From Sphingobium yanoikuyae (lineage in GTDB: Bacteria; Pseudomonadota; Alphaproteobacteria; Sphingomonadales; Sphingomonadaceae), in assembly GCF_034424525.1 (NCBI RefSeq), contig NZ_CP139979.1, positions 806,001 to 870,000 on the forward strand: a DNA stretch of 64,000 nt. Reading direction: 5' to 3'. The notes below the pieces were generated by a model. That model was not told the DNA's origin. It saw only the letters and a list, made by a program, of their open reading frames with translations, and ran no database searches. The first letter of the stretch is position 1. Every line of letters starts with the position of its first letter. Position numbers and translations under genes: made by a program. This document shows, piece after piece, positions 43,160-64,000 of this stretch.

Positions 43160-43918
43160 TCAGCGCCAGCCGGCGTCGATGAAATAGTCATGGCCGGTGC
43201 AATAGCGCGCATCGTCCGACGACAGGAACATGGCCAGCGCGGCGACGTCGACCGGCAGGATGCGGCCGTCCAGGCACTGGGCCGCGACGATCTCGGCCTC
43301 GCCTTCGGGCGTGTACCATTTTTCCTGGCGCAGCGTCTTCACATTGCCCGGAATGATGGTGTTGACGCGGATATTGTCGCGGCCAAGGTCGCGGGCCAGG
43401 CTGCGCGTCAGCCCCTCGATCGCCGCCTTGGCGGTCTGGTAGAGGATGAGGTCGGGCAGGGCCAGGTGCCAGCTGATCGAACCGAAGTTCAGGATCACGC
43501 CGCCGCCCGCGCGCTTCATCGCCGGGATTGCCGCCTGTGCCGCGAAGAACTGGTGGCGCAGATTGACCGCCATCCGCTCGTCCCAATAGGCCTGGGTCAC
43601 GTCCTCGATCGCATGGCGATCGTCATTGGCGGCGTTGTTGATCAGGATGTCGATCCCGCCCAGTTCCGCCTCGACCCGCGCCATCATCGCCTGCAGCGCG
43701 TTGATGTCGCGCAGGTCGCAGGCGTGGAAGATCGGGGTGAAGGCGCAGCCGCTCAGCCGTGCGGCTAGCGCCTCGCTCTCGGGGATGGCGATGTCGCAGA
43801 AGGCGACATGCGCGCCCTGCATCGAATAGGCTTCGACCAGCCCTTCGCCGATGCCGCTGCCGCCGCCGCTGATGAAGACCCGCTTGCCCTTCAGGCTCGG
43901 GTAGATGGCGCGGCTCAT
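43160..43918 (-). CDS. xylB: NAD-dependent D-xylose 1-dehydrogenase, XylB-like SDR
   Basis: 252 residues. The start MSRAIYPSLKGKRVFISGGGSGIG and the blocks NDDRH, NFGSISWHLALPDL, LYQTAKAAIEGLTRSLARDLG, PGNVKTLRQEKWYTPEGEAEIVAAQCL and CTGHDYFIDAGWR closely follow what I recall of Caulobacter XylB. GGGSGIG (18-24) binds NAD; Ser in NFGSIS, Tyr and Lys in YQTAK are the SDR catalytic residues. It oxidises D-xylose to xylonolactone, the first step of the oxidative xylose pathway. Its ATG overlaps the xylX stop by 4 bases, so the operon is translationally coupled. Confidence 0.88.
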   Translation of the reverse strand: MSRAIYPSLKGKRVFISGGGSGIGEGLVEAYSMQGAHVAFCDIAIPESEALAARLSGCAFTPIFHACDLRDINALQAMMARVEAELGGIDILINNAANDDRHAIEDVTQAYWDERMAVNLRHQFFAAQAAIPAMKRAGGGVILNFGSISWHLALPDLILYQTAKAAIEGLTRSLARDLGRDNIRVNTIIPGNVKTLRQEKWYTPEGEAEIVAAQCLDGRILPVDVAALAMFLSSDDARYCTGHDYFIDAGWR

Positions 43919-45092: not shown

Positions 45093-45106
45093 TGATAGCG
45101 CTACCA
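45093..45106. promoter_or_regulatory. LacI-type operator of the xylose operon
   Basis: TGATAGCGCTACCA is a near-perfect palindrome centred on CG, typical of LacI-family sites. On the minus strand a TTGACT -35 element (45130-45125) lies 24 bases before the operator, which would therefore cover the -10 and start region of xylX. The same 14-mer recurs before the TonB receptor gene at 63707 and a variant lies at 51939. Confidence 0.82.
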
Positions 45107-48563: not shown

Positions 48564-49637
48564 CTATTTTCGGCCCTTATGCTTGGGGCGCAGCCGCGGC
48601 GCCGCGTCGGACTGGCGGCGGACCAATTCATAGTCCAGCAGCATGTGCGGCGGGCCATCCTCGCTCTGGGCGCGGCGGCCCTTGATATGGCGCACCAACA
48701 GGTCGACCGCCGCCCGCGACATGGCGCTGATCGGCTGGCGGATGGTGGTCAGTTCCGGCCAGATGGTGGTGGCAAGCGAGGTATCGTCGAAGCCGCAGAC
48801 GGTGAGGTCGCCCGGCACGTCCAGCCCGTTGCGATGGGCGATCGCCACCGTCGCGGCGGCCATGTCGTCATTGCTGGCGAAGATGGCGGTCGGCGGATTG
48901 TCCCGCGCCAATATATGCTCGGCTGCATCCAGCCCGGATCGGTAGGTGAAGAAACCCTGTTCCACCAGCGCATCGTCCAGCGCGATGCCGGCTTCGCCCA
49001 GCGCGCGGATATAGCCCTGATAACGTTCCTCGCTGGCGCTCAGGTTCGGATGCCCCTTGATGAAGCCGATGCGGTTATGGCCAAGGCCAATCAGGTGCCG
49101 GGTCATTTCATAGGCCGCGCCCCGGTCGTCGATGCTGACCGCGGCCAGGCTGGCCGGCGCATGGCCGTTCGCCACCACGACGGCGGGGATGCCCGCCTCG
49201 CGCAGCGCATCGATCATCGCTTGATGGTCGCACAGCGGCGGCGGCAGCACGACGCCGTCGATCCGGCCGCGCACCAGATGGTCGACCACCGCCTTGATCG
49301 CGGTCTGCTCGTCCCATTTCTCGACGACCAGGTCGATGCCCGCGCGGCTCGACTGGTCGAGGCTCCCGACCAGGAATTCCGACAGATAGGATGCAGACGG
49401 GTTGGAATAGAGCAGGCCGATCCGCGTCTCGTCGCCGCCCGCCAGGCTGCGCGCGGCGGCGCTGGGGGAGTAGTTGAGCGCGGCGATCGCCGCCTCCACC
49501 TTCTCCTTGGTCGCCGCCCGCACCACCTGTTCACCGTTGATTACCCGCGACACCGTCATCGGCGACACGCCGGCATGTTTCGCCACATCGTTGATGGTGG
49601 GCGCGTTGCGCTGGCGGCGGGAACTTCTGGCTTCCAT
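48564..49637 (-). CDS. LacI-family transcriptional regulator, probable xylan/xylose regulator
   Basis: 357 residues. The helix-turn-helix and hinge run from TINDVAKHAGVSPMTVSRVINGEQVV (about 14-39) to AAIAALNYSPSAAARSLAGG. The periplasmic-binding-like effector domain contains RIGLLYSNPSASYLSEFLVG, GRIDGVVLPPP, GHNRIGFIKGHP, AIFASNDDMAAATV and LTVCGFDDTSLATTIWPELTTIRQP. It is the only LacI protein in the window, and LacI-type palindromes are found before xylX, between GH67 and GH3, and before the TonB receptor. It lies 74 bases downstream of GH67 on the same strand, so it is probably co-transcribed and autoregulated. The effector is likely a xylose or xylo-oligosaccharide derivative. Confidence 0.9.
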   Translation of the reverse strand: MEARSSRRQRNAPTINDVAKHAGVSPMTVSRVINGEQVVRAATKEKVEAAIAALNYSPSAAARSLAGGDETRIGLLYSNPSASYLSEFLVGSLDQSSRAGIDLVVEKWDEQTAIKAVVDHLVRGRIDGVVLPPPLCDHQAMIDALREAGIPAVVVANGHAPASLAAVSIDDRGAAYEMTRHLIGLGHNRIGFIKGHPNLSASEERYQGYIRALGEAGIALDDALVEQGFFTYRSGLDAAEHILARDNPPTAIFASNDDMAAATVAIAHRNGLDVPGDLTVCGFDDTSLATTIWPELTTIRQPISAMSRAAVDLLVRHIKGRRAQSEDGPPHMLLDYELVRRQSDAAPRLRPKHKGRK

Positions 49638-49711
49638 CAGTTTTTCGGGGCCTTCGACATGGGACTAAACCTCTCTGCTAGCGGGATCATTGCGCAAGCT
49701 TAAGTAAAATC

Positions 49712-51856
49712 TCATTTCGGATGCCCCGGCGCATAGGGGAAGCTCAGCGCCTTGTACCAGTCGAGCGGATGGGCGGGCGCCGCGCTGCCGGCGGGCAGGG
49801 GGCGGCCGGACACCGACTGGAAATAGGCGATGCAGGCGTCGCGCCACCATTGGGCTTCGCGATGCTGGATCGCCAGGAAGGTCTCGACCTGCGCGAAGCG
49901 CTCGGCATCGACCTGGGGCTTGAGCTTGGCCCAATCCCGCTGCATAGCTGCCACCGTTTCGACGCCCCGGTCATAATGGTGGATGAGGCCGTCCCACAGC
50001 GTCTCGCCCGATTGCAGGCGATAATCCCAGGGCAGATGGTGGAACCACAGTAGCTCGCGTTCCGGCGTGGTCTTCGGATTGTCGAGCAGCTTGGCCAGCG
50101 CCGGCGCATATTGGCCGGTGGCATTGCTGCCCGTCCTGGTCCGGTCAAAACCGATGCCCTGCTTGTCGGCCTTGTGATAGTAGACCGGGTTCCATTCGGG
50201 CCGCGCCAGTTCGGACACCCAGGGGGCGGGGCCATAATGATGGCCGGTGCCCATGATATGGGCCAGGCCCAGCGGCGTCATATAGTCGACCGCCGCCTCG
50301 CGCGATCCCATCATCATCGCGACGATCGGTGCAACCACCCTGGGATCGGGGGAGAAGGTCTGCGCCGCCCATTCGCGCGCGACAGCCTCGGCGGTCAGGT
50401 CGGTGTCCCACGCCATGCGGCCGAACGCATACCAGTCCGCCTGGTTGAAGATCGATCCGCTCCAGTCACGGTCGACGCCGATATTGGCAACCCCGGCGAT
50501 GCCGGTCAGCTTGTGGCCTTCCAGCGATCCGTCGATCACCTTGGCGACGGTCGATCCCTTGCCTTTGGCCAGCGTATCGCTCTTCAGCGTCTCCTCGAAC
50601 AGCGTGCCGAGATAGGTAAGGTGGGTCGACTGGCCCAGATATTCCTTGGTGATCTGGAATTCCATCATCAGCGGCGTCTTGGGCATCGCGCCGAACAGCG
50701 GGTGGAAGGGTTCGCGCGGCTGGAAATCGATCGCGCCATTCTTCACCTGGACGATGACATTGTCGGCGAACTGGCCGTCGAGCGGCTTGAAGTCGCTATA
50801 GGCCTGCTTGGCGCGATCGTCGGGATTGTCATGGGCATAGACGAAGGCGCGCCACATCACGATGCCGCCATGCGGCTTGACCGCGGCCGCCAGCATGTTG
50901 GCGCCGTCGGCATGGGTGCGCTTGTAATCCTGCGGGCCGGGCTGGCCCTCGCTGTTCGCCTTCACCAGGAAGCCGCCGAAATCGGGGATCGCCTTGTAGA
51001 TCTCGTCGGCCTTGGCTTTCCACCAGGCGGCGACCGCCGGATCGAGCGGGTCGGCGCTTTTCAGGCCATCCAGTTCCATCGGCGCGGTCCATTTGACCGA
51101 CAGATAGACCTTGATGCCATAGGGGCGGAACAGGTCGGCCAGCGCCGCCGCCTTGGCGATATAGGCGGCGGTCAGGCTGTCCGACTTCGCATTCACATTG
51201 TTGAGCACCGTGCCGTTGATGCCCAGCGAGGCGTTGGCGCGGGCATAGTCGGTATAGCGCGGCCCCTTATAATCGGGCAGGCGCCACCAGTCCCAGATCG
51301 ACTGGCCGGCATAGCCGCGCTCGACCGTGCCATCCAGATTGTCCCAATGGTTGAGCAGGCGCAGGCCGATGCGCGGCGCGCTGCGCATATCGATCCGGTC
51401 GAGCGCCGCGCCGGTGCGGGCAAGGCGCAGCCACGCATAGGCGCCGTGCAGCACGCCGACATCGGTCGCGCCGGCAATCACGGTCACCGGCTTGCCGACG
51501 ACCGTCATGGTGCGAATCGCATAACCGTCAGGCCCCAGGCCGTCGGTCGGCACCAATGGCTTGTCCTGCTGCGCGGCCGATTGCAGCAGGATCGCACCTT
51601 GCTGCACTGTTGCTGTCAGGGGCACGGTGGCGCCGGTAAGCCCGGCAATGCCGCGCTGCAATTCCTGCCTTGCGATCGTCAGGGTAGGGCTGGTCCCGCC
51701 GACAATGCTGCGCGCGTTGGCCCCAATTTGTTGGGCAGCGGCGGCATCGGCCGGCACGTTGCGCAGCCACAGATCATAGCCATCCTCGGCCCAGGCGCGC
51801 GGCGCGCCGATCAAAAGGGCGCTGGCCATGATCCAGCAAAATAGGCGCGCAAACAT
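49712..51856 (-). CDS. GH67 alpha-glucuronidase, exported
   Basis: 714 residues from ATG 51856. The signal peptide MFARLFCWIMASALLIGAPRAWA ends before EDGYDLWLRN. An N-terminal GH67 domain is followed by the (beta/alpha)8 catalytic domain with RIGLRLLNHWDNLDGTVERGYAG, VKANSEGQPGPQDYKRTHADGANMLA (about 295-320) and HPLFGAMPKTPLMMEFQITKEYLG. A C-terminal helical domain has LLWFHHLPWDYRLQSGETLWDGL. It removes 4-O-methyl-glucuronic acid from the non-reducing end of xylo-oligosaccharides. It shares the operator at 51939 with the divergent GH3 gene. The start 10 codons upstream would spoil the signal peptide. Confidence 0.93.
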   Translation of the reverse strand: MFARLFCWIMASALLIGAPRAWAEDGYDLWLRNVPADAAAAQQIGANARSIVGGTSPTLTIARQELQRGIAGLTGATVPLTATVQQGAILLQSAAQQDKPLVPTDGLGPDGYAIRTMTVVGKPVTVIAGATDVGVLHGAYAWLRLARTGAALDRIDMRSAPRIGLRLLNHWDNLDGTVERGYAGQSIWDWWRLPDYKGPRYTDYARANASLGINGTVLNNVNAKSDSLTAAYIAKAAALADLFRPYGIKVYLSVKWTAPMELDGLKSADPLDPAVAAWWKAKADEIYKAIPDFGGFLVKANSEGQPGPQDYKRTHADGANMLAAAVKPHGGIVMWRAFVYAHDNPDDRAKQAYSDFKPLDGQFADNVIVQVKNGAIDFQPREPFHPLFGAMPKTPLMMEFQITKEYLGQSTHLTYLGTLFEETLKSDTLAKGKGSTVAKVIDGSLEGHKLTGIAGVANIGVDRDWSGSIFNQADWYAFGRMAWDTDLTAEAVAREWAAQTFSPDPRVVAPIVAMMMGSREAAVDYMTPLGLAHIMGTGHHYGPAPWVSELARPEWNPVYYHKADKQGIGFDRTRTGSNATGQYAPALAKLLDNPKTTPERELLWFHHLPWDYRLQSGETLWDGLIHHYDRGVETVAAMQRDWAKLKPQVDAERFAQVETFLAIQHREAQWWRDACIAYFQSVSGRPLPAGSAAPAHPLDWYKALSFPYAPGHPK

Positions 51857-51899
51857 TCGGTCCTCTCCCCCTTGGCCCGCAGGCAATTTTTTGGTGCAT

Positions 51900-51952
51900 T
51901 GCCAACGGTGGCATTGACAAGCAGCTCTTGGGTCGTGATGGTAACGCTATCA
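51900..51952. promoter_or_regulatory. Shared promoter/operator region between GH67 and GH3
   Basis: TGGTAACGCTATCA (51939-51952) is a variant of the LacI-type palindrome. A plus-strand TTGACA (51914-51919) lies 25 bases before it, nearly the same spacing as at the xylose operon, so the operator would cover the -10 region. A second inverted repeat, TGCCA-ACGG-TGGCA (51900-51913), overlaps the start of the -35 element. The site lies 83 bases before the GH67 ATG on the other strand. Confidence 0.75.
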
Positions 51953-52006
51953 GTTGATCGGCGGCAAGCAAAAAGGAAAGCCGCGACAAAATTGGAGAGG
52001 GGCGTC

Positions 52007-54382
52007 GTGATCCGGTCAGTTCAGTTTTTGTGCGCAGCATCAGCGCTGTCGCTGGTGATGGCGGCGCCGCTCACGTCCGTTACGGCCGCGCCCGTGACCA
52101 GCCAGTCGGCCCGCCCGCTTTACAAGGATGCGTCCGCCCCGATCGAGGCGCGCGTCGATGATCTGCTGGCGCGCATGACGCTGGATGAAAAGATCGCCCA
52201 GATCACCACTGTCTGGACTGACAAGGTGAAGCTGCTGGACGCGCAGGGCGAACTGGACCCCGGCAAGCTCAGTCCGACCTTCCCCAGCGGCATCGGCCAT
52301 TTCACCCGTCCGTCGGACGGTCGTGGCAGTTTCAGCCCGCGCGTCGTGCCCGGCCGCGATCCGCGCCGCACCGTCGCGCTGGTCAACGGCCTGCAGAAAT
52401 GGGCGATGACGCAGACGCGGCTCGGCATCCCGATCCTGTTCCATGAAGAAGGGCTGCACGGCTATGCCGCCGTTGGCGCCACCAGTTTCCCCCAGTCGAT
52501 CGCCATGGCGTCGAGCTGGGATCCGGCCATGCTGCGCCAGGTCAATCAGGTGATCGCCCGCGAAATCCGCGCGCGCGGCGTGCCGATGGTGCTCTCGCCC
52601 GTGGTCGACATCGCCCGCGACCCGCGCTGGGGCCGGATCGAGGAAACCTATGGCGAGGATCCCTATCTGGTCGGCGAAATGGGCGTTGCGGCGGTGGAGG
52701 GGCTGCAAGGCGTTGGCCGTTCGCGCACGCTCCAGCCCAATCATGTCTTCGCCACGCTCAAGCATCTGACCGGCCATGGCCAGCCGGAAAGCGGCACCAA
52801 TATCGGCCCAGCGCCGGTGTCGGAACGGGAATTGCGCGAGAATTTCTTCCCGCCCTTCGAACAGGTGGTGAAGCGCACCGGCATCGAGGCGGTGATGGCC
52901 AGCTATAACGAGATTGATGGCGTGCCCAGCCACGCCAATCGCTGGCTGCTGGACAATGTGCTGCGTCAGGAATGGGGCTTTCGCGGCGCCGTCGTCTCCG
53001 ATTATTCGGCCGTCGATCAGTTGATGAGCATCCACCATATCGCCGCCAATCTGGAAGAGGCGGCGATGCGCGCGCTCGATGCCGGCGTCGATGCGGACCT
53101 GCCCGAGGGCCTGTCCTATGCCACGCTCGGCAAGCTGGTGCGCGAGGGCAAGGTCAGCGAGGCGAAGGTCGATCTCGCCGTGCGCCGCATGCTGGAGTTG
53201 AAGTTCCGCGCCGGCCTGTTCGAAAATCCCTATGCCGACGCCAATGCGGCCGCTGCGATCACCAACAATGAAGATGCCCGCGCGCTCGCCCGCACCGCCG
53301 CGCAGCGTTCCATAACCCTGCTCAAGAATGACGGCATGCTGCCGCTGAAGCCCGAAGGCACGATCGCGGTGATCGGCCCCAGCGCGGCGGTCGCGCGGCT
53401 GGGCGGCTATTATGGTCAGCCGCCGCACAGCGTCTCGATCCTGGAAGGGATCAAGGCGCGGGTCGGCACCAAGGCGAACATCGTCTTCGCTCAGGGCGTG
53501 AAGATCACCGAGGATGACGACTGGTGGGCCGACAGCGTCACCAAGTCGGACCCGGCCGAAAACCGCAAGCTGATCGCCCAGGCGGTCGAGGCGGCGCGCA
53601 ATGTCGACCGCATCATCCTGACCTTGGGCGACACCGAACAGTCGAGCCGCGAAGGCTGGGCCGACAATCATCTGGGCGACCGCCCCAGCCTCGACCTCGT
53701 CGGCGAGCAGCAGGAACTGTTCGATGCGCTGAAAGCGCTGGGCAAGCCGATCACCGTCGTCCTCATCAACGGCCGCCCGGCCTCCACGGTGAAGGTCAGC
53801 GAACAGGCCAACGCCATCCTCGAAGGCTGGTATCTGGGCGAGCAGGGCGGCAATGCCGTGGCCGACATCCTGTTCGGCGACGTCAATCCGGGCGGCAAGC
53901 TGCCCGTCACCGTGCCGCGATCGGCGGGCCAGTTGCCGCTCTTCTACAATATGAAGCCCTCGGCCCGGCGCGGCTATCTGTTCGACACCACCGACCCGCT
54001 CTATCCCTTCGGCTTCGGCCTCAGCTACACCAGCTTCAGCCTGTCGGCGCCGCGCCTGTCCGCCACCAGGATCGGCACCGGCGGCAAGACCAGCGTCTCG
54101 GTGGATGTCCGCAACACCGGTGCGCGGGAAGGGGACGAGGTCGTCCAGCTCTATATCCGCGACAAGGTCAGCTCCGTCACCCGCCCGGTCAAAGAGCTGA
54201 AGGGCTTCCAGCGCGTGACGCTCAAGCCCGGCGAGAGCCGCACCATCACCTTCACGGTCGGTCCCGAGGCGCTGCAAATGTGGAACGACCAGATGCGCCG
54301 CGTCGTCGAACCCGGCGATTTCGAGATCATGACCGGCAACAGCTCGGTCGCGCTCCAGTCCACCACCCTGACGGTGCAATAA
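52007..54382 (+). CDS. GH3 beta-xylosidase/beta-glucosidase-like enzyme, Sec-exported
   Basis: 791 residues. GTG 52007 follows GGAGAGG and gives a standard signal peptide (IRSVQFLCAASALSLVMAAPLTSVTA). The GH3 N-domain has KDASAPIEARVDDLLARMTLDEKIAQI, the substrate pocket HEEGLHGY, and DPRWGRIEETYGEDPYL, and the nucleophile Asp332 in GAVVSDYSAV. The C-domain (HGSWxx-type glucosyl domain) has LLKNDGMLPLKPEGTIAVIG and LGDTEQSSREGW. A fibronectin-III-like end has VSVDVRNTGAREGDEVVQLYIRD. In this context cleavage of xylo-oligosaccharides to xylose is likely. The next GH3 gene begins 3 bases after the stop. Confidence 0.92.
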   Translation: MIRSVQFLCAASALSLVMAAPLTSVTAAPVTSQSARPLYKDASAPIEARVDDLLARMTLDEKIAQITTVWTDKVKLLDAQGELDPGKLSPTFPSGIGHFTRPSDGRGSFSPRVVPGRDPRRTVALVNGLQKWAMTQTRLGIPILFHEEGLHGYAAVGATSFPQSIAMASSWDPAMLRQVNQVIAREIRARGVPMVLSPVVDIARDPRWGRIEETYGEDPYLVGEMGVAAVEGLQGVGRSRTLQPNHVFATLKHLTGHGQPESGTNIGPAPVSERELRENFFPPFEQVVKRTGIEAVMASYNEIDGVPSHANRWLLDNVLRQEWGFRGAVVSDYSAVDQLMSIHHIAANLEEAAMRALDAGVDADLPEGLSYATLGKLVREGKVSEAKVDLAVRRMLELKFRAGLFENPYADANAAAAITNNEDARALARTAAQRSITLLKNDGMLPLKPEGTIAVIGPSAAVARLGGYYGQPPHSVSILEGIKARVGTKANIVFAQGVKITEDDDWWADSVTKSDPAENRKLIAQAVEAARNVDRIILTLGDTEQSSREGWADNHLGDRPSLDLVGEQQELFDALKALGKPITVVLINGRPASTVKVSEQANAILEGWYLGEQGGNAVADILFGDVNPGGKLPVTVPRSAGQLPLFYNMKPSARRGYLFDTTDPLYPFGFGLSYTSFSLSAPRLSATRIGTGGKTSVSVDVRNTGAREGDEVVQLYIRDKVSSVTRPVKELKGFQRVTLKPGESRTITFTVGPEALQMWNDQMRRVVEPGDFEIMTGNSSVALQSTTLTVQ

Positions 54383-54385
54383 GCC

Positions 54386-56764
54386 ATGATGATGACCCGC
54401 TTCGCCCGTCGCCAGGCGCTCGGCCTGCTCGCCTCCACCTCCGCGCTCGCCGCCGCCCCGCTGGCAGCGAAGGGGAAGGGCGGTCCGCTCTACAAGGATG
54501 CTTCCGCCCCCATCGACCTGCGCGTGCGCGACCTGCTCGGCCGCATGACCTTGGAGGAAAAGGTCGGCCAGATCATCGCGCTCTGGGCGACCAAGGCCGA
54601 CATCATGGACGATCTCATTTTCTCGCCGGCCAAGGCGAGCAAGGCCTATCCGGTGAGCTTCGGCCAGATCACCCGCCCGTCCGACCGGCGCGGCGCGCCC
54701 AACGGATCGACCCAGGCCGGCGGCGTCGGTGCGCGCTGGCGCACCCCGGCCGATACCGTCGCCTTCATCAATGCCGTCCAGAAATGGGCGGTAGAGGACA
54801 CCCGCCTCGGCATTCCGATCCTCTTCCACGAGGAATCGCTCCACGGCTACATGGCGACCGACGCCACCATGTTCCCGATGGCGATCGGCCTTGCCGGCAG
54901 TTTCGACCGCCAGCTGATGACCGATGTCCAGTCGGTTATCGCGCGCGAAGTGCGTGCACGCGGCGTCCATCTCGCGCTTTCGCCGGTGGTCGACATCGCC
55001 CGCGACCCGCGCTGGGGCCGGATCGAGGAGACTTTTGGCGAAGACCCCTATCTCTGCGGCGAGATGGGCGTCGCCGCCGTGCTGGGCCTGCAGGGGGAGG
55101 GCAAGCAGATCGGCCCGGACAAGGTCATGGCCACGCTCAAGCATATGACCGGCCATGGCCAGCCGCAGGCGGGCGAGAATATCGCGCCCGCGCCGATCAG
55201 CGAGCGCGAACTGCGCGAGAATTTCTTCCCGCCCTTCCGTCAGGTGGTGAAACGCACCGGCATCGCCGCCGTCATGCCCAGCTATAACGAAATTGACGGC
55301 GTCCCCAGCCACCAGAACAAGTGGCTGCTCGGCGATATCCTGCGCGGCGAATGGCATTTCGATGGCGCCGTGGTCAGCGATTATGGCGCCGTCCCCGAGC
55401 TCGACACCATCCACCATGTCCAGCCCGACCTGGAGGCGACGGCCCGTGCCGCGCTCCGCGCCGGGGTCGATTGCGAGCTGCCCGATGGCCTGGCCTATCG
55501 CACGCTCGTGGAGCAGGTCCGCGCCGGAAAAGTGCCCCTTGAGGCCGTCAACCTCGCCTGCACGCGCATGTTGACGCTCAAGTTCCGCGCGGGCCTGTTC
55601 GAAAATCCCTGGCCGCGCGCCGATTATGATGCGCTCACCGGCAATGCGGAGGCGCGCGCGCTCGCGCTCAAGGCGGCGCACAAGTCGATCGTGCTGCTGA
55701 AGAATGACGGCACCTTGCCGCTCAAGCCCGGCGCCCATCGCAAGGTGGCCGTGATCGGCCCCAATGCCGCGATCGCGCGGCTGGGCGGCTATTCCTCGAT
55801 CCCGCGCCAGGCGGTCTCGCTGCTCGACGGGGTGAAGGCGAAGCTCGGCAACCGGGCGGACATCGTCCATGCCCAGGGCGTCTTCATCACCCAGAGCGAG
55901 GACCGCTCGGTGGACGAAGTGCTGCTGGCCGATCCGGCGAAGAACCGCCAGCTGATCGCCGAAGCGGTCGAGGTTGCGAAGACCGCCGACATCATCCTGC
56001 TGGCCATCGGCGACACCGAACAGACCAGCCGCGAAGGCTTTGCCAAAAACCATCTGGGCGATCGCACCAGCCTCGATCTGGTCGGTGAGCAGAATGATCT
56101 GTTCGCCGCGATGAAGGCGACTGGGAAGCCGGTGGTGGTGTGCGCCATCAACGGCCGCCCGCCCAGCTATCCTGCCGTGGTCGATGGCGCCAATGCGCTG
56201 ATCGAATGCTGGTATCCGGGGCAGGAGGGCGGCACGGCGATGGCCGACATATTGTTCGGAGACGTCAATCCGGGTGCCAAGCTGCCCGTCACCGTCGCGC
56301 GCGACGCCGGCCAGATCCCGATCTTCTACAACCGCAAGCCATCCTCTCGGCGCGGCTATCTCTTCGCCGACACCAGCCCGCTTTTCCCGTTCGGCTTCGG
56401 CCTCAGCTACACCAAATTCGCCTTCGGTCCGCCGCGCCTGTCGGCCAGCCGCATCGGGGTCGGCGGCGACGTGACGGTGGAGGTCGATGTCCGCAATGTC
56501 GGCACTGTCGCGGGCGAAGAGGTGGTGCAGCTCTATGTCCATGACCAGACCGCCTCGGTCACCCGCCCGCTCAAGGAGTTGAAGGGCTTCGAACGGATCG
56601 CGCTGGCGCCGGGCGAAAGCCGCACCGTGCGCCTGACGATCGGCCCGGAAGCCTTCGCGCTGTGGAATCTCGACATGCGCGAAGTGGTCGAACCCGGCCT
56701 GTTCGACATCATGGTCGGGCCGGACAGCGCCACGCTTCAGACGGCTACATTGGAAATCGTCTGA
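54386..56764 (+). CDS. GH3 beta-xylosidase-like enzyme, Tat-type signal
   Basis: 792 residues, a tandem paralogue of the preceding enzyme with the same domain order. The N-terminus TRFARRQALGLLASTSALAAAPLAA has a twin-arginine signal (RRQALGLLA), unlike its neighbour. Pocket residues are HEESLHGYMATDATMFP and DPRWGRIEETFGEDPYL, and the nucleophile is Asp332 in GAVVSDYGAV, the same position as in the neighbour. LLKNDGTLPLKPGA and AIGDTEQTSREGF follow, then the fibronectin-III-like end VEVDVRNVGTVAGEEVVQLYVHD. It differs at several pocket positions, so substrate preference may differ. Three ATGs in a row open the gene. Confidence 0.92.
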   Translation: MMMTRFARRQALGLLASTSALAAAPLAAKGKGGPLYKDASAPIDLRVRDLLGRMTLEEKVGQIIALWATKADIMDDLIFSPAKASKAYPVSFGQITRPSDRRGAPNGSTQAGGVGARWRTPADTVAFINAVQKWAVEDTRLGIPILFHEESLHGYMATDATMFPMAIGLAGSFDRQLMTDVQSVIAREVRARGVHLALSPVVDIARDPRWGRIEETFGEDPYLCGEMGVAAVLGLQGEGKQIGPDKVMATLKHMTGHGQPQAGENIAPAPISERELRENFFPPFRQVVKRTGIAAVMPSYNEIDGVPSHQNKWLLGDILRGEWHFDGAVVSDYGAVPELDTIHHVQPDLEATARAALRAGVDCELPDGLAYRTLVEQVRAGKVPLEAVNLACTRMLTLKFRAGLFENPWPRADYDALTGNAEARALALKAAHKSIVLLKNDGTLPLKPGAHRKVAVIGPNAAIARLGGYSSIPRQAVSLLDGVKAKLGNRADIVHAQGVFITQSEDRSVDEVLLADPAKNRQLIAEAVEVAKTADIILLAIGDTEQTSREGFAKNHLGDRTSLDLVGEQNDLFAAMKATGKPVVVCAINGRPPSYPAVVDGANALIECWYPGQEGGTAMADILFGDVNPGAKLPVTVARDAGQIPIFYNRKPSSRRGYLFADTSPLFPFGFGLSYTKFAFGPPRLSASRIGVGGDVTVEVDVRNVGTVAGEEVVQLYVHDQTASVTRPLKELKGFERIALAPGESRTVRLTIGPEAFALWNLDMREVVEPGLFDIMVGPDSATLQTATLEIV

Positions 56765-56767
56765 TGG

Positions 56768-56834
56768 TATTGGCCTGACCAATATCGTTGAAGGCAAATT
56801 GATTATCGCCTATGGCCATTATTGGTCATACCAG
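56768..56834. promoter_or_regulatory. Two palindromes before manD, GntR-type operator candidates
   Basis: TATTGG-CCTGA-CCAATA (56768-56784) and TTGGT-CAT-ACCAG (56822-56834) both lie between the GH3 stop and the manD ATG. The second fits the TNGT-Nx-ACNA form recognised by FadR-subfamily GntR regulators such as UxuR/ExuR. They differ from the LacI-type sites of the other units. No GntR gene is in the window. Confidence 0.55.
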
Positions 56835-56850
56835 TTTTAGGGGAGCATCC

Positions 56851-58062
56851 ATGCCCAAGATTACCGGCGCCAAGGTCATTGTCACCTGCCCTGGCCGCAA
56901 TTTCGTCACCCTCAAGATCGAGACCGAAGAGGGCGTCTATGGTCTGGGCGATGCGACCCTCAACGGCCGCGAACTGTCCGTCGCCTCCTATCTGCAGGAC
57001 CATGTCATTCCCTGCCTGATCGGTCGGGACGCGCACCAGATCGAGGATATCTGGCAATATCTCTACAAGGGCGCCTATTGGCGCCGCGGCCCGGTGACGA
57101 TGTCGGCCATCGCCGCCGTCGATACCGCGCTCTGGGATATCAAGGGCAAGATTGCCGGCCTGCCGGTCTATCAGCTGCTCGGCGGTGCCAGCCGTGAAAG
57201 CGTCATGGTCTATGGCCATGCCAATGGCACGACGATCGAGGATACGGTCAAGGTCGCGCTGGAATATCAGGCCCAGGGCTACAAGGCGATCCGCATCCAG
57301 TGCGGCGTCCCCGGCATGGCGTCGACCTATGGCGTGTCGAAGGACAAATATTTCTACGAACCCGCCGACGCCGACCTGCCGACCGAAAATGTCTGGAACA
57401 CCAGCAAATATCTCCGCATCGTCCCCGAACTGTTCAAGGCCGCGCGCGAGGCGCTGGGCTGGGACGTGCATCTGCTGCACGACATCCATCATCGCCTGAC
57501 CCCGATCGAGGCCGGTCGCTTGGGCAAGGATCTGGAACAATATCGCCCCTTCTGGCTGGAAGATGCGACCCCGGCGGAAAATCAGGATGCGTTCAAGCTG
57601 ATCCGCCAGCACACCACCACGCCGCTGGCCGTGGGCGAGATCTTCAACTCGATCCATGATTGCCGCGAACTGATCCAGAACCAGCTGATCGACTATATCC
57701 GCGCCACAGTGGTCCATGCCGGCGGCATCAGCCATCTGCGCAAGATCGCGAACCTCGCCGATCTCTATCAGGTCCGCACCGGCTGCCATGGCGCGACCGA
57801 CCTGTCGCCGGTCTGCATGGCCGCCGCGCTTCACTTCGACCTGTCAGTGCCCAATTTCGGGGTGCAGGAATATATGCGCCACACGCCCGAGACCGACGCC
57901 GTCTTCCCCCATGCCTATACGTTCGAAAACGGCGCCATGCATCCGGGCGACAAGCCGGGCCTGGGCGTCGACATCGACGAAGAACTGGCCGCCAAATATG
58001 AATATAATCGCGCCTTCCTGCCGGTGAACCGGCTCGAAGACGGCACCATGTTCAACTGGTGA
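56851..58062 (+). CDS. manD: D-mannonate dehydratase ManD (enolase superfamily)
   Basis: 403 residues from ATG 56851, preceded by AGGGGAG. The capping domain [22 protein letters not shown] leads into a barrel with [26 protein letters not shown] (about 97-122), YGHANG, and the metal-binding series [24 protein letters not shown] and VGEIFNS. The late blocks [11 protein letters not shown] and NFGVQEYM are typical of ManD proteins. It dehydrates D-mannonate to 2-keto-3-deoxygluconate, the step after UxuB in glucuronate breakdown, so it links the glucuronic acid released by GH67 to central metabolism. Confidence 0.9.
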
Positions 58063-58091
58063 TCGCTTGACCTGCTTTGGCCACTCCACTC

Positions 58092-58180
58092 CGTCATCCC
58101 CGCGAAAGCGGGGATCCATCTCCTGCCATAGCCCCAATCGCGAGGTCCGGAGGTGGATTCCCGCGTTCGCGGGAATGACG
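58092..58180. repeat. Dispersed-repeat-like element with inverted ends
   Basis: The 27-base ends are inverted copies with few differences: left CGTCATCCCCGCGAAAGCGG... (58092-58118) and right ...CCGCGTTCGCGGGAATGACG (58154-58180). Each arm folds into its own hairpin (CCCCGCGAAAGCGGGG; CCCGCGTTCGCGGG). It fills the gap between manD and the MFS gene. Very similar elements are widespread in alphaproteobacterial intergenic DNA. The hairpins may also modulate read-through. Confidence 0.75.
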
Positions 58181-58200
58181 AAACATTGTCGGAGTGGCCA

Positions 58201-59475
58201 ATGACCACCATCCCCAAACCGTCCGGAAAAGTCCGCTGGATCGTCTGCGGCCTGCTCTTTGCGGCGGTGGTGCTGAGCTATATCGACCGGCTTGTCCTGC
58301 CGACGCTCAAGCCCGATCTGCAGGCCCGCTATGGCTGGAGCGAGAGCGGCTATGCCGATCTCGCCATCTGGTTCCAGGCCGGATACGGCATCGCCTATGT
58401 CGCCTTCGGCCGGCTGATCGACCGGATCGGCGCGCGGGCCGGCTATGCGCTGGCGGTCGGCCTGTGGACGGTCGGCCATGTCATGCACATCTTCTTCACC
58501 TCGACCGCCGGCATGCTGTTCGCCCGCATCCCACTGGCAATTGGTGAGGCGGGGACATTCCCGGCGGCGATCGCCGCCACCAATGAATGGTTTCCCAAGA
58601 AGGAACGCGCCTTCGCCATCGGCATCTTCAATGCCGGCTCCAATGTCGGCGCGATCCTGACGCCGCTGATCGTCCCGGTCATTGCGGTCACGCTGGGCTG
58701 GCGCTGGGCCTTCATCCTCACCGGCCTGCTGACGGTCTTCTGGCTCGCCGCCTGGCTGACCTTCTACCGTCGCCCGCGCGAGAAGAAGGGGCTGAGCGCC
58801 GAGGAACTGGCCTGGATCGAGGCGGACCCGCAGGAACCGGCCCGTCCGGTCAAGTGGCGCACCCTGTTCCGCTATCGCCAGACCTGGGCCTATATGACCT
58901 CGCGCTTCCTGATCGATCCGGTCTGGTGGACCTTCCTCTTCTGGCTGCCCGATTTCTTCAACAAGCAATATGGCGTGAAGATGCTGGACTTCGGCCCGCC
59001 GCTGATCGCCGTCTATCTGCTGGCCGATGTCGGTTCGGTCGCGGGCGGCTGGCTGTCGTCACGGCTGATGGGCCGGGGTATGAACATCAACCGCGCCCGC
59101 AAGACGGCGATGTTCTGCGCCGGGCTTTGCGCCCTGCCGATCGCCTTTGCCGCACAGGCGCCCAGCATGTGGATTGCGGTCGGCCTGATCGGTCTCGCCT
59201 GCGCCGGGCATCAGGGCTTTTCGGCCAATGTCTATGCCTTGCCGGGCGATCTCTTCCCGCGCTGGATGGCGGGGTCGGTGGTCGGCCTTGGCGGGCTGGC
59301 CGGCGCGATCGGCGGCATGCTGATGGCCAAGTTCGCCGGCATCATCCTGGAAACCGTCGGCAGCTTCCAGCCGATCTTCATCGTCGCATCCTGTGCCTAT
59401 TTGCTGGCGCTGCTGGTGCTGCACCTTATCGTCCCGCGCTATGCGCCCGTGACTCTCTCGCAAGAGGCTGCCTGA
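58201..59475 (+). CDS. MFS transporter, anion:cation symporter family (hexuronate type)
   Basis: 424 residues from ATG 58201 (MTTIPKPSGKVRW); the frame also reads back through the repeat element to 58153 but that is not a likely start. Twelve membrane helices are visible. The first half has SYIDRLVLPTLKPDL, GRLIDRIGARAGYALAVGLW and RIPLAIGEAGTFPAAIAATNEWFPKKERAFAIGIFNAGSNVGA, the ACS-family pattern seen in ExuT-like hexuronate porters. Placement between manD and uxuB supports glucuronate or aldobiouronate uptake across the inner membrane. The uxuB-like gene begins 4 bases after the stop. Confidence 0.87.
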   Translation: MTTIPKPSGKVRWIVCGLLFAAVVLSYIDRLVLPTLKPDLQARYGWSESGYADLAIWFQAGYGIAYVAFGRLIDRIGARAGYALAVGLWTVGHVMHIFFTSTAGMLFARIPLAIGEAGTFPAAIAATNEWFPKKERAFAIGIFNAGSNVGAILTPLIVPVIAVTLGWRWAFILTGLLTVFWLAAWLTFYRRPREKKGLSAEELAWIEADPQEPARPVKWRTLFRYRQTWAYMTSRFLIDPVWWTFLFWLPDFFNKQYGVKMLDFGPPLIAVYLLADVGSVAGGWLSSRLMGRGMNINRARKTAMFCAGLCALPIAFAAQAPSMWIAVGLIGLACAGHQGFSANVYALPGDLFPRWMAGSVVGLGGLAGAIGGMLMAKFAGIILETVGSFQPIFIVASCAYLLALLVLHLIVPRYAPVTLSQEAA

Positions 59476-59479
59476 TCCT

Positions 59480-60940
59480 GTGACCCGTCTATCGTCCGCC
59501 ACGCTCGCCGGCCTGCCCGCCGATATCGTCCGTCCCGGCTATGACCGCACGGCGGTTCGCCCCGGCGTCGTCCATCTCGGCATCGGCGCCTTCAACCGCG
59601 CGCATCAGGCGGTCATCTTCGATGATGCGCTGACCGCCGGCGACCTGCGCTGGGGCGTGATCGCCGCGTCGCTGCGCTCACCCGGCGTGCGCGACCAGAT
59701 GATGCCGCAGGACTGCCTCTACACCATGCTGGTGCGCGACGGATCGGCCGAGCAGGCGCGCATCATCGGTGTAGTGAGCGAGGTACTGGTCGCGCCGGAA
59801 GACCCGGCCGCATTGGTCCCCGCGCTCGCCGCGCCCGACACCCATATCGTCACCCTCACCGTGACCGAGAAGGGCTATAAGCTCGACCCCGCGACCGGCG
59901 CCCTGATTGAGGGCGATCCCCAGCTCGCCGCCGACCTTGCCTCGCTCGCCGCGCCGCAGACTGCGCCCGGCTTCCTCGTCGCCGCGCTCGCCGCGCGACG
60001 GGCCGCGGGCCTGCCGCCCTTTACCGCGATCAGCTGCGACAATCTGCCGCACAATGGCACCCGGCTGCGCAACGCCGTGCTGGCGCTCGCCGCCCGGCAC
60101 GACCCGGCGCTGGCCGATTGGATCGCGGCGGAAGGGGCCTTCCCCGAAACCATGGTCGACCGCATCGTCCCCGCCACCACCGACGCCGACATCGCCGCGC
60201 TCGCCGACCGGCTCGGCGTGGAAGACCAGGCGATGGTCAAGACCGAACCCTTCCTGCAATGGGTGATCGAGGATAAATTCTGCGGTCCGCGCCCCGATTT
60301 CGGCGCCGGGGTTCAGGTCACCGCCGCCGTCGCCCCCTGGGAGGAGGCGAAGCTGCGCCTGCTCAACGGCGCGCATAGCGGCATCGCCTATCTCGGCGGC
60401 CTCGCCGGCATCGACCATGTCCATGAAGTGCTGGCGCTGCCCGAAGCCCGGCATTTCGTCGAAAGTCTGTGGGACGAGGCGCAGACCACGCTGTCGCCGC
60501 CGCCCGAACTGGACGTCGCCGCCTATCGCCGCGAGCTGATGGCGCGCTTCGACAATCCGACCCTGCAGCATCGCACCCGCCAGATCGCGATGGATGGCTC
60601 GCAAAAGCTGCCCCAGCGCCTGCTCGCTACCATCGCGGCGCGGCTGTCGGCAGGGCAGGGGATCGATGCCCTGTCGCTCGCCGTCGCCGCCTGGGTCCGC
60701 TGGCAGGCCGGCGTCGATGACCGGGGCGAAGCGCATGTCGTCGACGATCCGCTCGCCGCTGCCATCGCGGCCCGCCTTGCCGACGCCCCTTCCACCGAGG
60801 CTCGGGTCGACGCGATCCTCGCCTTCGACGCCGTGGTGCCCGCCGACCTTGCCGGCAACGCCGCCTTCCGCGCCGCGCTGATCCGCTGGCTCGCCATCCT
60901 CGAAGCCGACGGCGCCCGCGCCGCGCTCGCCCAGCTCTGA
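59480..60940 (+). CDS. D-mannonate oxidoreductase / fructuronate reductase (mannitol dehydrogenase family)
   Basis: 486 residues starting at GTG 59480. The nucleotide-binding start VHLGIGAFNRAHQAVIFDDAL is at about 31-51. NLPHNGTRLRNAVLA, KTEPFLQWVIEDKFC and KLRLLNGAHSGIAYLGGLAGI (with the catalytic Lys-Asn-His region) are the long-chain polyol dehydrogenase marks. Next to manD, the likely reaction is NADH-dependent fructuronate to mannonate (UxuB), though mannitol or arabinitol oxidation cannot be excluded from sequence alone. The GH2 gene starts 11 bases after the stop, so manD-porter-uxuB-GH2 may form one unit. Confidence 0.86.
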   Translation: MTRLSSATLAGLPADIVRPGYDRTAVRPGVVHLGIGAFNRAHQAVIFDDALTAGDLRWGVIAASLRSPGVRDQMMPQDCLYTMLVRDGSAEQARIIGVVSEVLVAPEDPAALVPALAAPDTHIVTLTVTEKGYKLDPATGALIEGDPQLAADLASLAAPQTAPGFLVAALAARRAAGLPPFTAISCDNLPHNGTRLRNAVLALAARHDPALADWIAAEGAFPETMVDRIVPATTDADIAALADRLGVEDQAMVKTEPFLQWVIEDKFCGPRPDFGAGVQVTAAVAPWEEAKLRLLNGAHSGIAYLGGLAGIDHVHEVLALPEARHFVESLWDEAQTTLSPPPELDVAAYRRELMARFDNPTLQHRTRQIAMDGSQKLPQRLLATIAARLSAGQGIDALSLAVAAWVRWQAGVDDRGEAHVVDDPLAAAIAARLADAPSTEARVDAILAFDAVVPADLAGNAAFRAALIRWLAILEADGARAALAQL

Positions 60941-60951
60941 CGGAGCCCCTG

Positions 60952-63633
60952 ATGAAGACCCTGCGCACCATCCTGCTCGCCTCCTGCCTGCTCAGCCCCG
61001 CCGCCCTGCTGGCAGCGCCGCGCGACAGCGTCTCGATCAGTCGCGACTGGCGCTTCACCAAGGGCGATCCTGCCGGCCTGACCGAGGATCTGCGCTATGA
61101 TGTACGCCCGCCCATTGAGGATGCCGGCGACGGCAAGGTGGCCGATGCCCGCCCCGACGCGGCGGTGCGGGTGGACGATAGCGGCGCGCGCGTGCTCAAG
61201 CCCTGGATATTGCCCAGCGCCAATCCCTTCATCGCCGATCCCGCCAAGCATCACACCCGGCCCGCCGGCAATCCGGGCGGCACCGTCTCCTATGTCCAGC
61301 CCGGCTTCGACGACAGCGGCTGGACCCATGTCGACCTGCCGCACGACTGGGCGATCGCCGGCCCCTTCATCAAGGACGGCCCCTATGGCGGCATGGGCCG
61401 CCTGCCCAGCTGGAGCATTGGCTGGTATCGCAAGGCGCTGACCATCCCCGCCAGCGACAAGGGCAAGTCGATCTTCCTCGATGTCGAAGGGGCGATGTCC
61501 TACGCCACCGTCTGGCTCAATGGAAAGCTCGTCGGCGGCTGGCCCTATGGCTATAACAGCTTCCGCCTCGACCTTACCCCCTATGCGGTGCCGGGCGGCC
61601 AGAACCAGCTCGTGATCCGCCTCGACAATCCGCAGGCTTCGGCGCGCTGGTATCCGGGCGGCGGCCTCTATCGCGACATCTATCTCACCACCACCAACAA
61701 GGTCCATGTCGGCCAGTGGGGCAGCATCGTCCGCACACCGCAGGTCAGCAAGGCGCAGGCCAGCGTGGACCTCAGCCTCACTCTCGACAATGACGGCGAC
61801 ACCCCGGCGCAGGTCGAGGTCGCGACCGCCCTCTATGCGATCGATGCCAGCGGCAAGCGCATCGGCCGCCCCGTCGCCAGCATCGCCCGCCAGTCCACCA
61901 GCATCGCCCCCCATGGCAAGGCGGAGCTGAAGGGCAGCACGATCCTCAGCAACCCGCGCCTCTGGGGCCCGCCGCCCACGCAAGCGCCCAACCGCTATGT
62001 CGCCGTCTCGACCGTGACCCAAGGCGGCAAGCTGATCGACAGCTACGAAACCCGCTTCGGCGTGCGCGACATCAAGTTCGATCCCGACAAGGGCGTGATC
62101 GTCAATGGCGAGCAGATCCCGCTGCGCGGCGTCAACAATCATCATGATCTCGGCGCGATCGGCGCCGCCTTCAACGCCCGCGCGGCCGAGCGCCAGCTCG
62201 AAATATTGCGCGAGATGGGCACCAACGCCGTGCGCATGAGCCACAACCCGCCCGCGCCCGAACTGCTCGAACTCACCGACCGCATGGGCTTCCTGGTGAT
62301 GGACGAGGTGTTCGACAGCTGGGAAAAGAAGAAGACCCCGCACGATTTCCACCTGATCTTTCCGGATTGGCATGAGGCCGACGCGCGCGCCATGCTGCGC
62401 CGCGACCGCAACCATCCCTCGATCATCATCTGGAGCATCGGTAATGAGGTCGGCGAACAATATGATGGCGAGGCGGGGGCGAAGATCGGCCGCGAACTGG
62501 TCGCCATCGCCCATCAGGAAGACCCGACCCGCCCCGCCACCAGCGCGATGAACTATGCCAAGGCGGACATGCTGCTGCCCACCACCGTGGACGTCATCAG
62601 CCTCAATTATCAGGGCGCCGGCATTCGCGGCATCGTCGGCCAATATCCTGCCTTCCGCGCGAAATTCCCGGACAAGCTTATCCTGTCCACCGAAAGCGCA
62701 TCGGCCCTGTCCAGCCGCGGCGAATATATGTTCCCGGTCTCCGGCTCCATCAGCGGCCCGGTCCGCCCCTGGTCGGGCGGTAATCCCGACACGCATCAGG
62801 TATCCGCCTATGAGATGCACGCCGCCGATTTCGGCTCCTCGCCCGACCGGGTCTGGGCCGCCGATGACCAGAATCCCTATGTCGCGGGCGAGTTCGTCTG
62901 GACCGGCTTCGATTATCTCGGCGAACCGACCCCCTATTACACGTCGCGCAGTTCCTATTCCGGCATCCTCGATCTCGCCGGATTCCCCAAGGACCGCTTC
63001 TGGCTCTACCAGGCACGCTGGCGGCCGGACCTCCAATTCGCGCATATCCTGCCGCACTGGACCTGGCCTGATCGCGTCGGCCAGATCACGCCGGTCCATG
63101 TCTTCTCCTCGGCCGACGAGGCGGAACTGTTCGTCAACGGCAAGTCGCAGGGCAAGGTCAAGAAGCGCGATTATGAATATCGCTTCCGTTGGGACTATGT
63201 CGTCTATGAACCGGGCGAGGTGAAGGTCGTCACCTGGAAGAAGGGCCAGCCCTGGGCGACCGAGACGATCCGCACCGTGGGCGAGGCGGCGAAACTGTCG
63301 CTGACCGCCGATCGCTCCGCCATCGCCGATGATGGTCGTGACCTCAGTTTCGTGACGCTCAAGGTCCTCGACAAGGACGGCAATGTCGTCCCCGCCGCCA
63401 AGCAGGACATCCGCTTCTCCATCGAGGGACCGGGCGAGATCATTGCCACCGATAATGGCGACCCGACCGATCTGACCGCCTTTCCCTCGCATGATCGCAA
63501 GGCATTCAACGGCTTGGCGCTGGTCATCGTGAAGGCAAAGCCAGGCGAAAAGGGCCGGGTGACCGTTCGCGCCAGCGCGCCGGGCCTGACCGCGGCGCAG
63601 GCCATCATCAGCACAAATGCCACAGTCCGCTGA
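60952..63633 (+). CDS. GH2 glycosidase, exported (beta-galactosidase/glucuronidase type)
   Basis: 893 residues. The signal peptide MKTLRTILLASCLLSPAALLAAP is followed by a jelly-roll sugar-binding domain (WTHVDLPHDWAI, YRKALTIP, VWLNGKLVGGWPYGYNSFRLDLTPY), an Ig-like domain, and a catalytic barrel beginning FGVRDIKFDPDKGVIVNGEQIPLRGVNNHHD. The acid/base is Glu499 in IWSIGNEVGEQ and the nucleophile is probably Glu581 in LSTESAS. DUF4982-like and Ig-like domains finish the chain (VHVFSSADEAELFVNGKSQG; SFVTLKVLDKDGN). An extra stretch at about 40-90 lies inside the first domain. Substrate is a beta-linked galactose or uronic acid side group. Confidence 0.88.
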   Translation: MKTLRTILLASCLLSPAALLAAPRDSVSISRDWRFTKGDPAGLTEDLRYDVRPPIEDAGDGKVADARPDAAVRVDDSGARVLKPWILPSANPFIADPAKHHTRPAGNPGGTVSYVQPGFDDSGWTHVDLPHDWAIAGPFIKDGPYGGMGRLPSWSIGWYRKALTIPASDKGKSIFLDVEGAMSYATVWLNGKLVGGWPYGYNSFRLDLTPYAVPGGQNQLVIRLDNPQASARWYPGGGLYRDIYLTTTNKVHVGQWGSIVRTPQVSKAQASVDLSLTLDNDGDTPAQVEVATALYAIDASGKRIGRPVASIARQSTSIAPHGKAELKGSTILSNPRLWGPPPTQAPNRYVAVSTVTQGGKLIDSYETRFGVRDIKFDPDKGVIVNGEQIPLRGVNNHHDLGAIGAAFNARAAERQLEILREMGTNAVRMSHNPPAPELLELTDRMGFLVMDEVFDSWEKKKTPHDFHLIFPDWHEADARAMLRRDRNHPSIIIWSIGNEVGEQYDGEAGAKIGRELVAIAHQEDPTRPATSAMNYAKADMLLPTTVDVISLNYQGAGIRGIVGQYPAFRAKFPDKLILSTESASALSSRGEYMFPVSGSISGPVRPWSGGNPDTHQVSAYEMHAADFGSSPDRVWAADDQNPYVAGEFVWTGFDYLGEPTPYYTSRSSYSGILDLAGFPKDRFWLYQARWRPDLQFAHILPHWTWPDRVGQITPVHVFSSADEAELFVNGKSQGKVKKRDYEYRFRWDYVVYEPGEVKVVTWKKGQPWATETIRTVGEAAKLSLTADRSAIADDGRDLSFVTLKVLDKDGNVVPAAKQDIRFSIEGPGEIIATDNGDPTDLTAFPSHDRKAFNGLALVIVKAKPGEKGRVTVRASAPGLTAAQAIISTNATVR

Positions 63634-63637
63634 AAAT

Positions 63638-63651
63638 TAATAACGTTACCA
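63638..63651. promoter_or_regulatory. Upstream LacI-like site before the last TonB receptor
   Basis: TAATAACGTTACCA keeps the AACGTT centre and the TACCA half of the LacI-type site but has a weaker left half. It is 20 bases upstream of the -35 element and 69 bases, centre to centre, from the strong site at 63707. Confidence 0.5.
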
Positions 63652-63670
63652 TTTTCGCCCGTCCCATATC

Positions 63671-63720
63671 TTGACAATTGGGACGGGCGCTTTAATGGTC
63701 TGCATCTGATAGCGCTACCA
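63671..63720 (+). promoter_or_regulatory. Promoter and LacI-type operator of the TonB receptor gene
   Basis: TTGACA (63671-63676), a 16-base spacer and TAATGG (63693-63698) form a sigma-70-like promoter. TGATAGCGCTACCA (63707-63720) lies just downstream, over the probable transcription start, and is identical to the xylose operon operator. Binding there would block transcription. Confidence 0.8.
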
Positions 63721-63766
63721 GATACGCCCACCGGATAGTCGGGGGCAGCGCTCGGGGAGAGGTTGT

Positions 63767-64000
63767 ATGAACATTTCACGCCACAATAATATCCGTGCGG
63801 CCCTGTTCGCCGCATCCGCCTTCGGCGCGCTGGGCCTGGCCCAGGCCGCCGCCGCGCAGGATGCCGCTGCACCGGCCGAAGCCGCCGCCGCGCCGCAGGA
63901 CAGCGAAACCGCCGACATCGTCGTCACCGGCATCCGCGCCTCGCTGGAAAGCGCCACCAACGCCAAGAAAAATGCGGTTGCGTTTGGCGACTCGATCTTC
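63767..64000 (+). CDS. TonB-dependent receptor, N-terminal part (cut by window end)
   Basis: 78 residues are visible. The signal peptide MNISRHNNIRAALFAASAFGALGLAQAAAAQ is followed by an Ala-rich spacer, the TonB-box-like DIVVTGIRASLESATNAKKNA and the beginning of a plug domain. The start ATG 63767 follows GGGGAGAGG. ATNAKKNA before the plug is common in sphingomonad and Caulobacter carbohydrate receptors. Its operator ties it to the xylan genes, so it is the likely outer-membrane importer of xylo-oligosaccharides. Confidence 0.88.
   Translation, partial: MNISRHNNIRAALFAASAFGALGLAQAAAAQDAAAPAEAAAAPQDSETADIVVTGIRASLESATNAKKNAVAFGDSIF

Follow-up and report, generated by a model that had tools for sequence, protein, structure and literature searches.

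A candidate XylR-type regulon spanning a glucuronoxylan island and an adjacent xylose operon in Sphingobium yanoikuyae

XylR is described as a LacI-type repressor that binds the xyl-box TGGTAGCGCTAACA and is released by xylose (PMC10380989, PMC7748154), and a palindrome is reported to be common to the Caulobacter xylose regulon and to TonB-receptor promoters of Xanthomonas (PMC1790865). The locus of S. yanoikuyae presented here lies in a window of 64,000 nucleotides, i.e., the whole stretch analyzed, at contig positions 806001-870000 within a genome of 5.53 Mb. Like the XylR/xyl-box regulon of Caulobacter and Xanthomonas as described in these reports (PMC10380989, PMC7748154), it combines a LacI-type regulator, a 14-base palindrome close to TGGTAGCGCTAACA (hereafter X), and xylan/xylose genes; as in Xanthomonas (PMC1790865), the palindrome also stands at a TonB-receptor promoter. 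Unlike that regulon, it has an oxidative xylose operon beside a GH67 island and, in this clade, an extra palindrome (hereafter U) at one promoter. The likeness to XylR comes from the LacI family, the operator form, and the linkage to xylX.

We think it reasonably probable that the island forms one half of a xylan regulon, that of debranching and uptake, under XylR-type control via X, that its lost uxaC has been replaced, and that a second repressor acts at U. From the genes, the sites, their conservation, and the trees, we infer binding, inducers, substrates, and a two-repressor logic as follows. Xylo-oligosaccharides would enter through the TonB receptor; in the periplasm, GH67 would take off (methyl)glucuronate and the GH3 enzymes would free xylose. 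Xylose would feed the adjacent xylose-oxidation operon, and glucuronate would pass through a major facilitator superfamily (MFS) porter to UxaC, UxuB, and ManD. Acting on X, a LacI protein of the XylR type, most probably the island's own, would keep the island, the xylose operon, and the receptor gene repressed. With the island's own uxaC lost, a UxaC of another type, encoded 3.4 Mb away together with its own LacI neighbor and a copy of U, would take that step, and the second repressor would act at U against the -35 box of the divergent promoter between GH67 and the first GH3 gene (GH67|GH3).

The island, the xylose operon, and their common operator

All the genes that the initial annotation, an enzyme list drawn up from the sequence alone, had named in the island were confirmed by domain searches. 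Positions are those of the window, unless a contig (C1) or locus handle precedes them.

48564-49637, minus strand: LacI-family regulator, probable XylR (LacI helix-turn-helix and periplasmic-binding-type domains)
49712-51856, minus strand: GH67 alpha-glucuronidase (PF07488/PF07477/PF03648)
52007-54382, plus strand: GH3, first copy, beta-xylosidase-like (PF00933/PF01915/PF14310, scanned on 51872-54382)
54386-56764, plus strand: GH3, second copy, beta-xylosidase-like (Pfam GH3 domains, D332 in VVSDY)
56851-58062, plus strand: D-mannonate dehydratase ManD (NF043051, 750 bits versus a cut-off of 550)
58201-59475, plus strand: MFS porter, hexuronate by context (PF07690)
59480-60940, plus strand: UxuB-type oxidoreductase of the mannitol dehydrogenase family (PF01232/PF08125)
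60952-63633, plus strand: GH2, beta-galactosidase GalB type (NF041463, 1468 bits versus a cut-off of 900)
63767-66637, plus strand, first 78 codons inside the window: TonB-dependent receptor (TIGR01782, 631 bits versus a cut-off of 310; full gene of 956 amino acids at L003:767-3637)

The same grouping recurs in related genomes and is thus not a product of chance. GH67 aligns over query residues 24-710 (825 bits) with the solved alpha-glucuronidase 1gqi, which we take to be the Cellvibrio enzyme; its E303, D377, and E405 fall at the positions of what are presumably the catalytic residues of that enzyme, E292, D365, and E393. D332 is kept by both GH3 copies within the VVSDY motif, whose Asp we assume to have its usual role in GH3, and, among solved structures, both come closest to a beta-xylosidase (7zb3, 'Beta-xylosidase', for the first copy). 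ManD matches 3thu across residues 1-403 (868 bits), and a solved relative of the GH2 enzyme is 9bey. Signal peptides, read by eye, are present on GH67, both GH3 enzymes, GH2, the receptor, and a downstream esterase, so glycosidase action would be periplasmic. The antisense open reading frames at 48579-49703 and 50111-51844 (both plus strand) had no family match in the Pfam scan; other long ones, e.g., 52040-56797 on the minus strand, are taken as a high-G+C artifact.

Two side observations concern ManD and its surroundings. On chemical reasoning only, the 4-O-methyl group of wood glucuronate maps onto the oxygen eliminated by mannonate dehydratase, and release of methanol would be possible. 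The intergenic region between manD and the porter gene holds the inverted repeats CCCCGCGAAAGCGGGG and CCCGCGTTCGCGGG (58096-58178), perhaps a dispersed intergenic repeat.

The neighboring operon is made up of genes for oxidative xylose use:

40841-42223, minus strand: XylE-like sugar porter (PF00083, scanned on 40841-42253; sugar porter family 337 versus a cut-off of 238, XylE equivalog under its cut-off)
42283-43158, minus strand: xylonolactonase-like protein, SMP-30/gluconolactonase (PF08450, 256 bits, scanned on 42283-43212)
43160-43918, minus strand: D-xylose 1-dehydrogenase XylB (NF053674, 445 bits versus a cut-off of 400)
43915-45066, minus strand: XylX-like FAA-hydrolase family protein (PF01557, 25.7 bits versus a cut-off of 23.9)

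The XylX-like protein is a putative 2-keto-3-deoxyxylonate dehydratase because of its place beside XylB. Near this operon, the product of 37743-38843 (plus strand) resembles GH43 and narrowly misses the Pfam cut-off (27.7 versus 32.2 bits).

The exact X pattern, TGGTARCGYTAYCA, was derived from a single site at 51939 and loosened according to the general form of LacI operators. Throughout the 5.5 Mb genome it has three exact matches, which lie at the promoters of xylX, GH67|GH3, and the TonB receptor:

45093-45106, unstranded: X operator upstream of xylX, exact TGGTARCGYTAYCA match
51939-51952, unstranded: X operator in the GH67|GH3 divergent promoter, exact match, TGGTAACGCTATCA
63707-63720, unstranded: X operator before the TonB receptor, exact match, with a one-mismatch copy at 63638-63651

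The island, which the initial annotation had called compact, is not a separate unit: it has this operator in common with the adjacent xylose operon (40841-45066). Outside the locus, X occurs with one mismatch at six places (691105, 1107792, 1217672, 2024297, 3407846, and 4541079). The site at 2024297 precedes, by about 115 bases, a GH43 gene that is aligned in the same direction as a GH10 gene (L010); the other five may be due to chance.

Conservation was assessed in 20 Sphingobium islands (400 kb in total), hand-picked among 44 other genomes of the genus with GH67, and in a wider set of GH67 loci, the best 80 of 589. Both sets overlap (the contigs of the pairs L198/L017, L207/L013, L204/L024, and L212/L023 are equal in length) and are therefore not independent samples. 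Over the best segment, the window's GH67 shares 96% identity with its Sphingobium scionense counterpart (L017). The wider X pattern is found at GH67|GH3 in 18 of the 20 islands and before the receptor in all 16 with the receptor in range, and over the 20 islands it has 34 sites, against an average of 0.0 across 20 Markov resamplings. Among the best 80 of 589 loci, 28 of the 32 that hold xylX have the pattern within 250 bases upstream of this gene, and 33 of the 80 have it within the same distance upstream of GH67, including 13 of the 15 whose titles name Sphingobium. As X is common to the island and the xylose operon and recurs in relatives, both look like one XylR-type regulon. Relatives of the island LacI (61-63%) are encoded near xylX in loci L078, L080, and L081. 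X overlaps or trails the -10 region predicted by eye, a placement as expected of a repressor. In the islands L212 and L217, the LacI is another one (50-51%) and X is shifted, to TGTTAACGCTATCA; regulator and operator may have changed together.

Loss of the island uxaC and the second palindrome

The Ashwell pathway takes glucuronate through uxaC, uxuB, and uxuA. The genome likewise encodes UxaC, a dehydrogenase of the UxuB type, and ManD; unlike in that pathway, the mannonate dehydratase step would be performed by this enolase-type enzyme, and UxaC is encoded at another locus in this clade. UxaC lies inside the island in 13 of the 20 islands. The seven without it are the window's close relatives L198, L199, and L200, plus L201-L204. 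In the sister genome G038 (island L211), uxaC stands in the island between the porter and uxuB genes and is the only UxaC of that genome. The GH67 tree gives a support of 1.0 to the window clade plus L211 and of 0.999 to the clade itself; the direction of change read from this tree argues that the island uxaC was lost in the window clade. The junction left between the porter and uxuB reads as follows:

59476-59483, plus strand: porter-uxuB junction, with CTGTGACCCG before/at the uxuB start, identical at the L211 uxaC end

The L211 uxaC terminates with CTGTGA, overlapping the uxuB start, and in the window CTGTGA directly follows the porter stop codon.

The sole UxaC match in the genome is at C1:4280281, 3.4 Mb along the contig (570 bits versus a cut-off of 387), flanked by a second LacI gene at L009:7185-8219 and a gene for a UxaA-like dehydratase, whose NCBIfam match to galactarate dehydratase is under the cut-off. 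It groups with ten other UxaC proteins, all 11 uxaA-linked (tree support 0.949), and is, judged by this tree, of another type than the island UxaC.

U may connect this distant locus to the island. Its exact pattern, TGCCAACGSTGGCA, has two sites in the genome, one in the GH67|GH3 promoter and the other, TGCCAACGCTGGCA, separating the predicted start of uxaC from that of the uxaA-like gene:

51900-51913, unstranded: U operator TGCCAACGGTGGCA, exact TGCCAACGSTGGCA site, abutting the predicted -35 box
51914-51919, plus strand: predicted -35 box TTGACA of the GH3 operon, read by eye

In an alignment of 19 GH67|GH3 promoters, with -35 and -10 boxes predicted by eye, CATTGACA is kept in all 19. The wider U pattern, TGCCAVCGBTGGCA, was run over 94 genomes of the genus and gave 54 sites. 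Twenty of these precede a UxaC match by 80-93 bases (20 of 74 such matches, including one gene fragment), and another four stand upstream of GH67 (4 of 45); these four are those of the window clade, in 4/4 genomes. Broken down by the position of uxaC, U at GH67 was present in none of the 31 genomes in which uxaC is linked, in 4 of the 12 with uxaC elsewhere, and in neither of the 2 devoid of any uxaC. The sister island L211, in which uxaC is present, lacks U.

Judging from its position, U would be bound by the LacI protein encoded beside uxaC. By eye, this protein shares SIRTVSRVLN with the LacI of a locus at 2.01 Mb, and the island LacI has SPMTVSRVIN. A U-type palindrome at the 2.01 Mb locus (C1:2015190) falls inside the start of a receptor reading frame, where it spells part of the signal peptide, and may therefore be due to chance. 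In some relatives, U lies inside the island just before uxaC (L021:2515, and the porter-uxaC gap of L216 and L131), which suggests separate control of the glucuronate step in those relatives.

A more elaborate version of the scheme, which we put forward tentatively and do not expect to hold in full, makes GH67|GH3 a coincidence detector. XylR on X at the -10 region and a hexuronate-sensing LacI on U at the -35 box would together allow full opening only when both backbone and side-chain sugars are sensed, U having been gained as uxaC was lost and the distant copy came to be relied on. A general rule by which uxaC elsewhere always brings U to GH67 is ruled out by the 8 of the 12 genomes without it. 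Of those eight, L201, L202, and L203 truly have no uxaC in the fetched stretch. For several others, a draft assembly places GH67 and uxaC on separate contigs, and the uxaC of G026 neighbors an island-type porter (L131); in such cases 'unlinked' reflects the assembly.

Counterevidence and alternative explanations

A number of observations weigh against the proposed regulon or parts of it. With up to one mismatch allowed, X does not outnumber a reversed control in the genome (7+9 versus 10+12). Upstream of GH67, 47 of the best 80 of 589 loci have no X within 250 bases; the islands L204 and L214 have none, and L201 has X yet no LacI within the fetched stretch. No X site with up to one mismatch precedes any of the genome's three PF00920 dehydratases, so co-regulation of the whole xylose route is not shown. 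Two functional labels are provisional because specific family scores are under their cut-offs: the best NCBIfam match of the 'hexuronate porter' is the D-galactonate transporter TIGR00893 (218 bits, cut-off 395), and 'UxuB' reaches 383 bits against the fructuronate reductase model NF011611 (cut-off 603). Only two bases (CT) of the deletion scar lie outside uxuB; it is therefore weak by itself, and it is the tree that speaks for a deletion. The UxaC tree has exceptions in the uxaA-linked L129, which falls among the island type, and the island L043, which falls among the other type. Over the 94 genomes, wider U is rarer than its reversed control (54 versus 96), so the evidence lies in placement alone; 54 of the 74 UxaC matches have no U nearby, and the same is true of GH67 in 8 of the 12 genomes with uxaC elsewhere. 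Since one branch carries both the acquisition of U and the disappearance of uxaC, their link amounts to a single coincidence.

Part of this evidence would suit an ordinary xylan locus under XylR alone, with U at 51900 a neutral consequence of the GGCATTGACA conserved around the -35 box, bound by no protein. GGCATTGACA is found in 18 of the 19 aligned promoters, so half of U was already there; U at GH67 is restricted to one clade, and genome-wide U is no commoner than the control. This account is quite possible, and we nonetheless incline against it: the 51900 site is one of two exact genome sites, the other being at uxaC|uxaA, it is kept in all four clade genomes, and over the 20 islands four U sites were found, one at an island uxaC, against a Markov expectation of 0.05. 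That ManD, the porter, and the UxuB-type gene share the operon would also fit a locus dedicated first to hexuronates, whose LacI senses glucuronate rather than xylose or xylo-oligosaccharides. We regard this as unlikely, given that X also precedes the xylose dehydrogenase operon, both here and at 28 of the 32 related xylX loci (best 80 of 589), and that relatives of the island LacI occur near xylX in L078, L080, and L081. The GH2 enzyme, scoring above the GalB cut-off, is what would speak for a galactan or galactosylated-hemicellulose locus led by a beta-galactosidase; it is present in 5 of the 20 islands (four of these five, outside the window, belong to the clade, its sister, and one other) versus X in 18 of the 20, and such a locus is highly improbable. 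Its beta-galactosidase score and its presence in only five islands also mean that GH2 is not a core step.

The remaining pathway genes and the significance of the locus

As the initial annotation had noted, the 64-kb window contains no endoxylanase or UxaC (GH11 was not searched). The suggestion that these genes might follow past 64000 was wrong: a GDSL esterase, one short unscanned gene, and PutA come after the receptor. These downstream genes, together with searches of the own genome, rule out the missing genes being immediately beyond the window. GH10, UxaC, and Eda are encoded elsewhere in the genome, and the absence that had been named as refuting the pathway did not occur. The three GH10 matches are at C1:2019906, 1629801, and 3786458; the nearest, 0.8 Mb off, is inside what appears by eye to be a polysaccharide-synthesis cluster, and the one at 2.02 Mb sits with GH43. 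GH115 is found at 4.38 Mb and Eda at 1.33 Mb (225 bits versus a cut-off of 156); the KdgK candidate at 2.78 Mb (266 bits) is under the cut-off of 400. A glucuronoxylan pathway can thus be assembled on paper from the whole genome, with KdgK as its weakest point. Use of glucuronoxylan is well supported by the assignment of GH67 and ManD and by the presence of GH10, UxaC, GH115, and Eda. The initial interpretation as a whole stands in part, corrected as to the site of the missing genes, the link to the xylose operon, and the place of GH2.

One of the GH10 genes belongs to a further polysaccharide locus (L010:248-19997), which contains genes for a LacI, a GH28-like protein, GH10, GH43, and a sulfatase, as well as two large genes that look, by eye, like those of outer-membrane receptors. 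It adjoins transposase and integrase genes and may be mobile.

With receptor, glycosidases, inner-membrane porter, and regulator together, the island is like the carbohydrate-utilization (CUT) loci described in PMC1790865. It differs from a single CUT locus in that its endoxylanase and UxaC are elsewhere, as in the multipartite systems proposed in the same report (PMC1790865). Our literature search found no two-repressor design joining xylose and hexuronate control; XynR and XylR, as described in Caldicellulosiruptorales, embody a related idea in another phylum (PMC12285236), and the main text of PMC4052901 does not contain 'Sphingomon'.

To conclude, the locus is of a widespread kind for xylan use, to which our analysis adds an apparent single regulon with the xylose operon, plus, in this clade, a U palindrome at the main promoter that is shared with the distant uxaC locus. 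An enzyme list is thereby replaced by a testable regulon. The window clade would also exemplify an operon whose missing gene is replaced by one of another type encoded elsewhere, with the operator of the replacement appearing in the operon's promoter on the same branch of the tree. If U works, it would show how two scattered loci become tied for the use of a two-sugar polymer.

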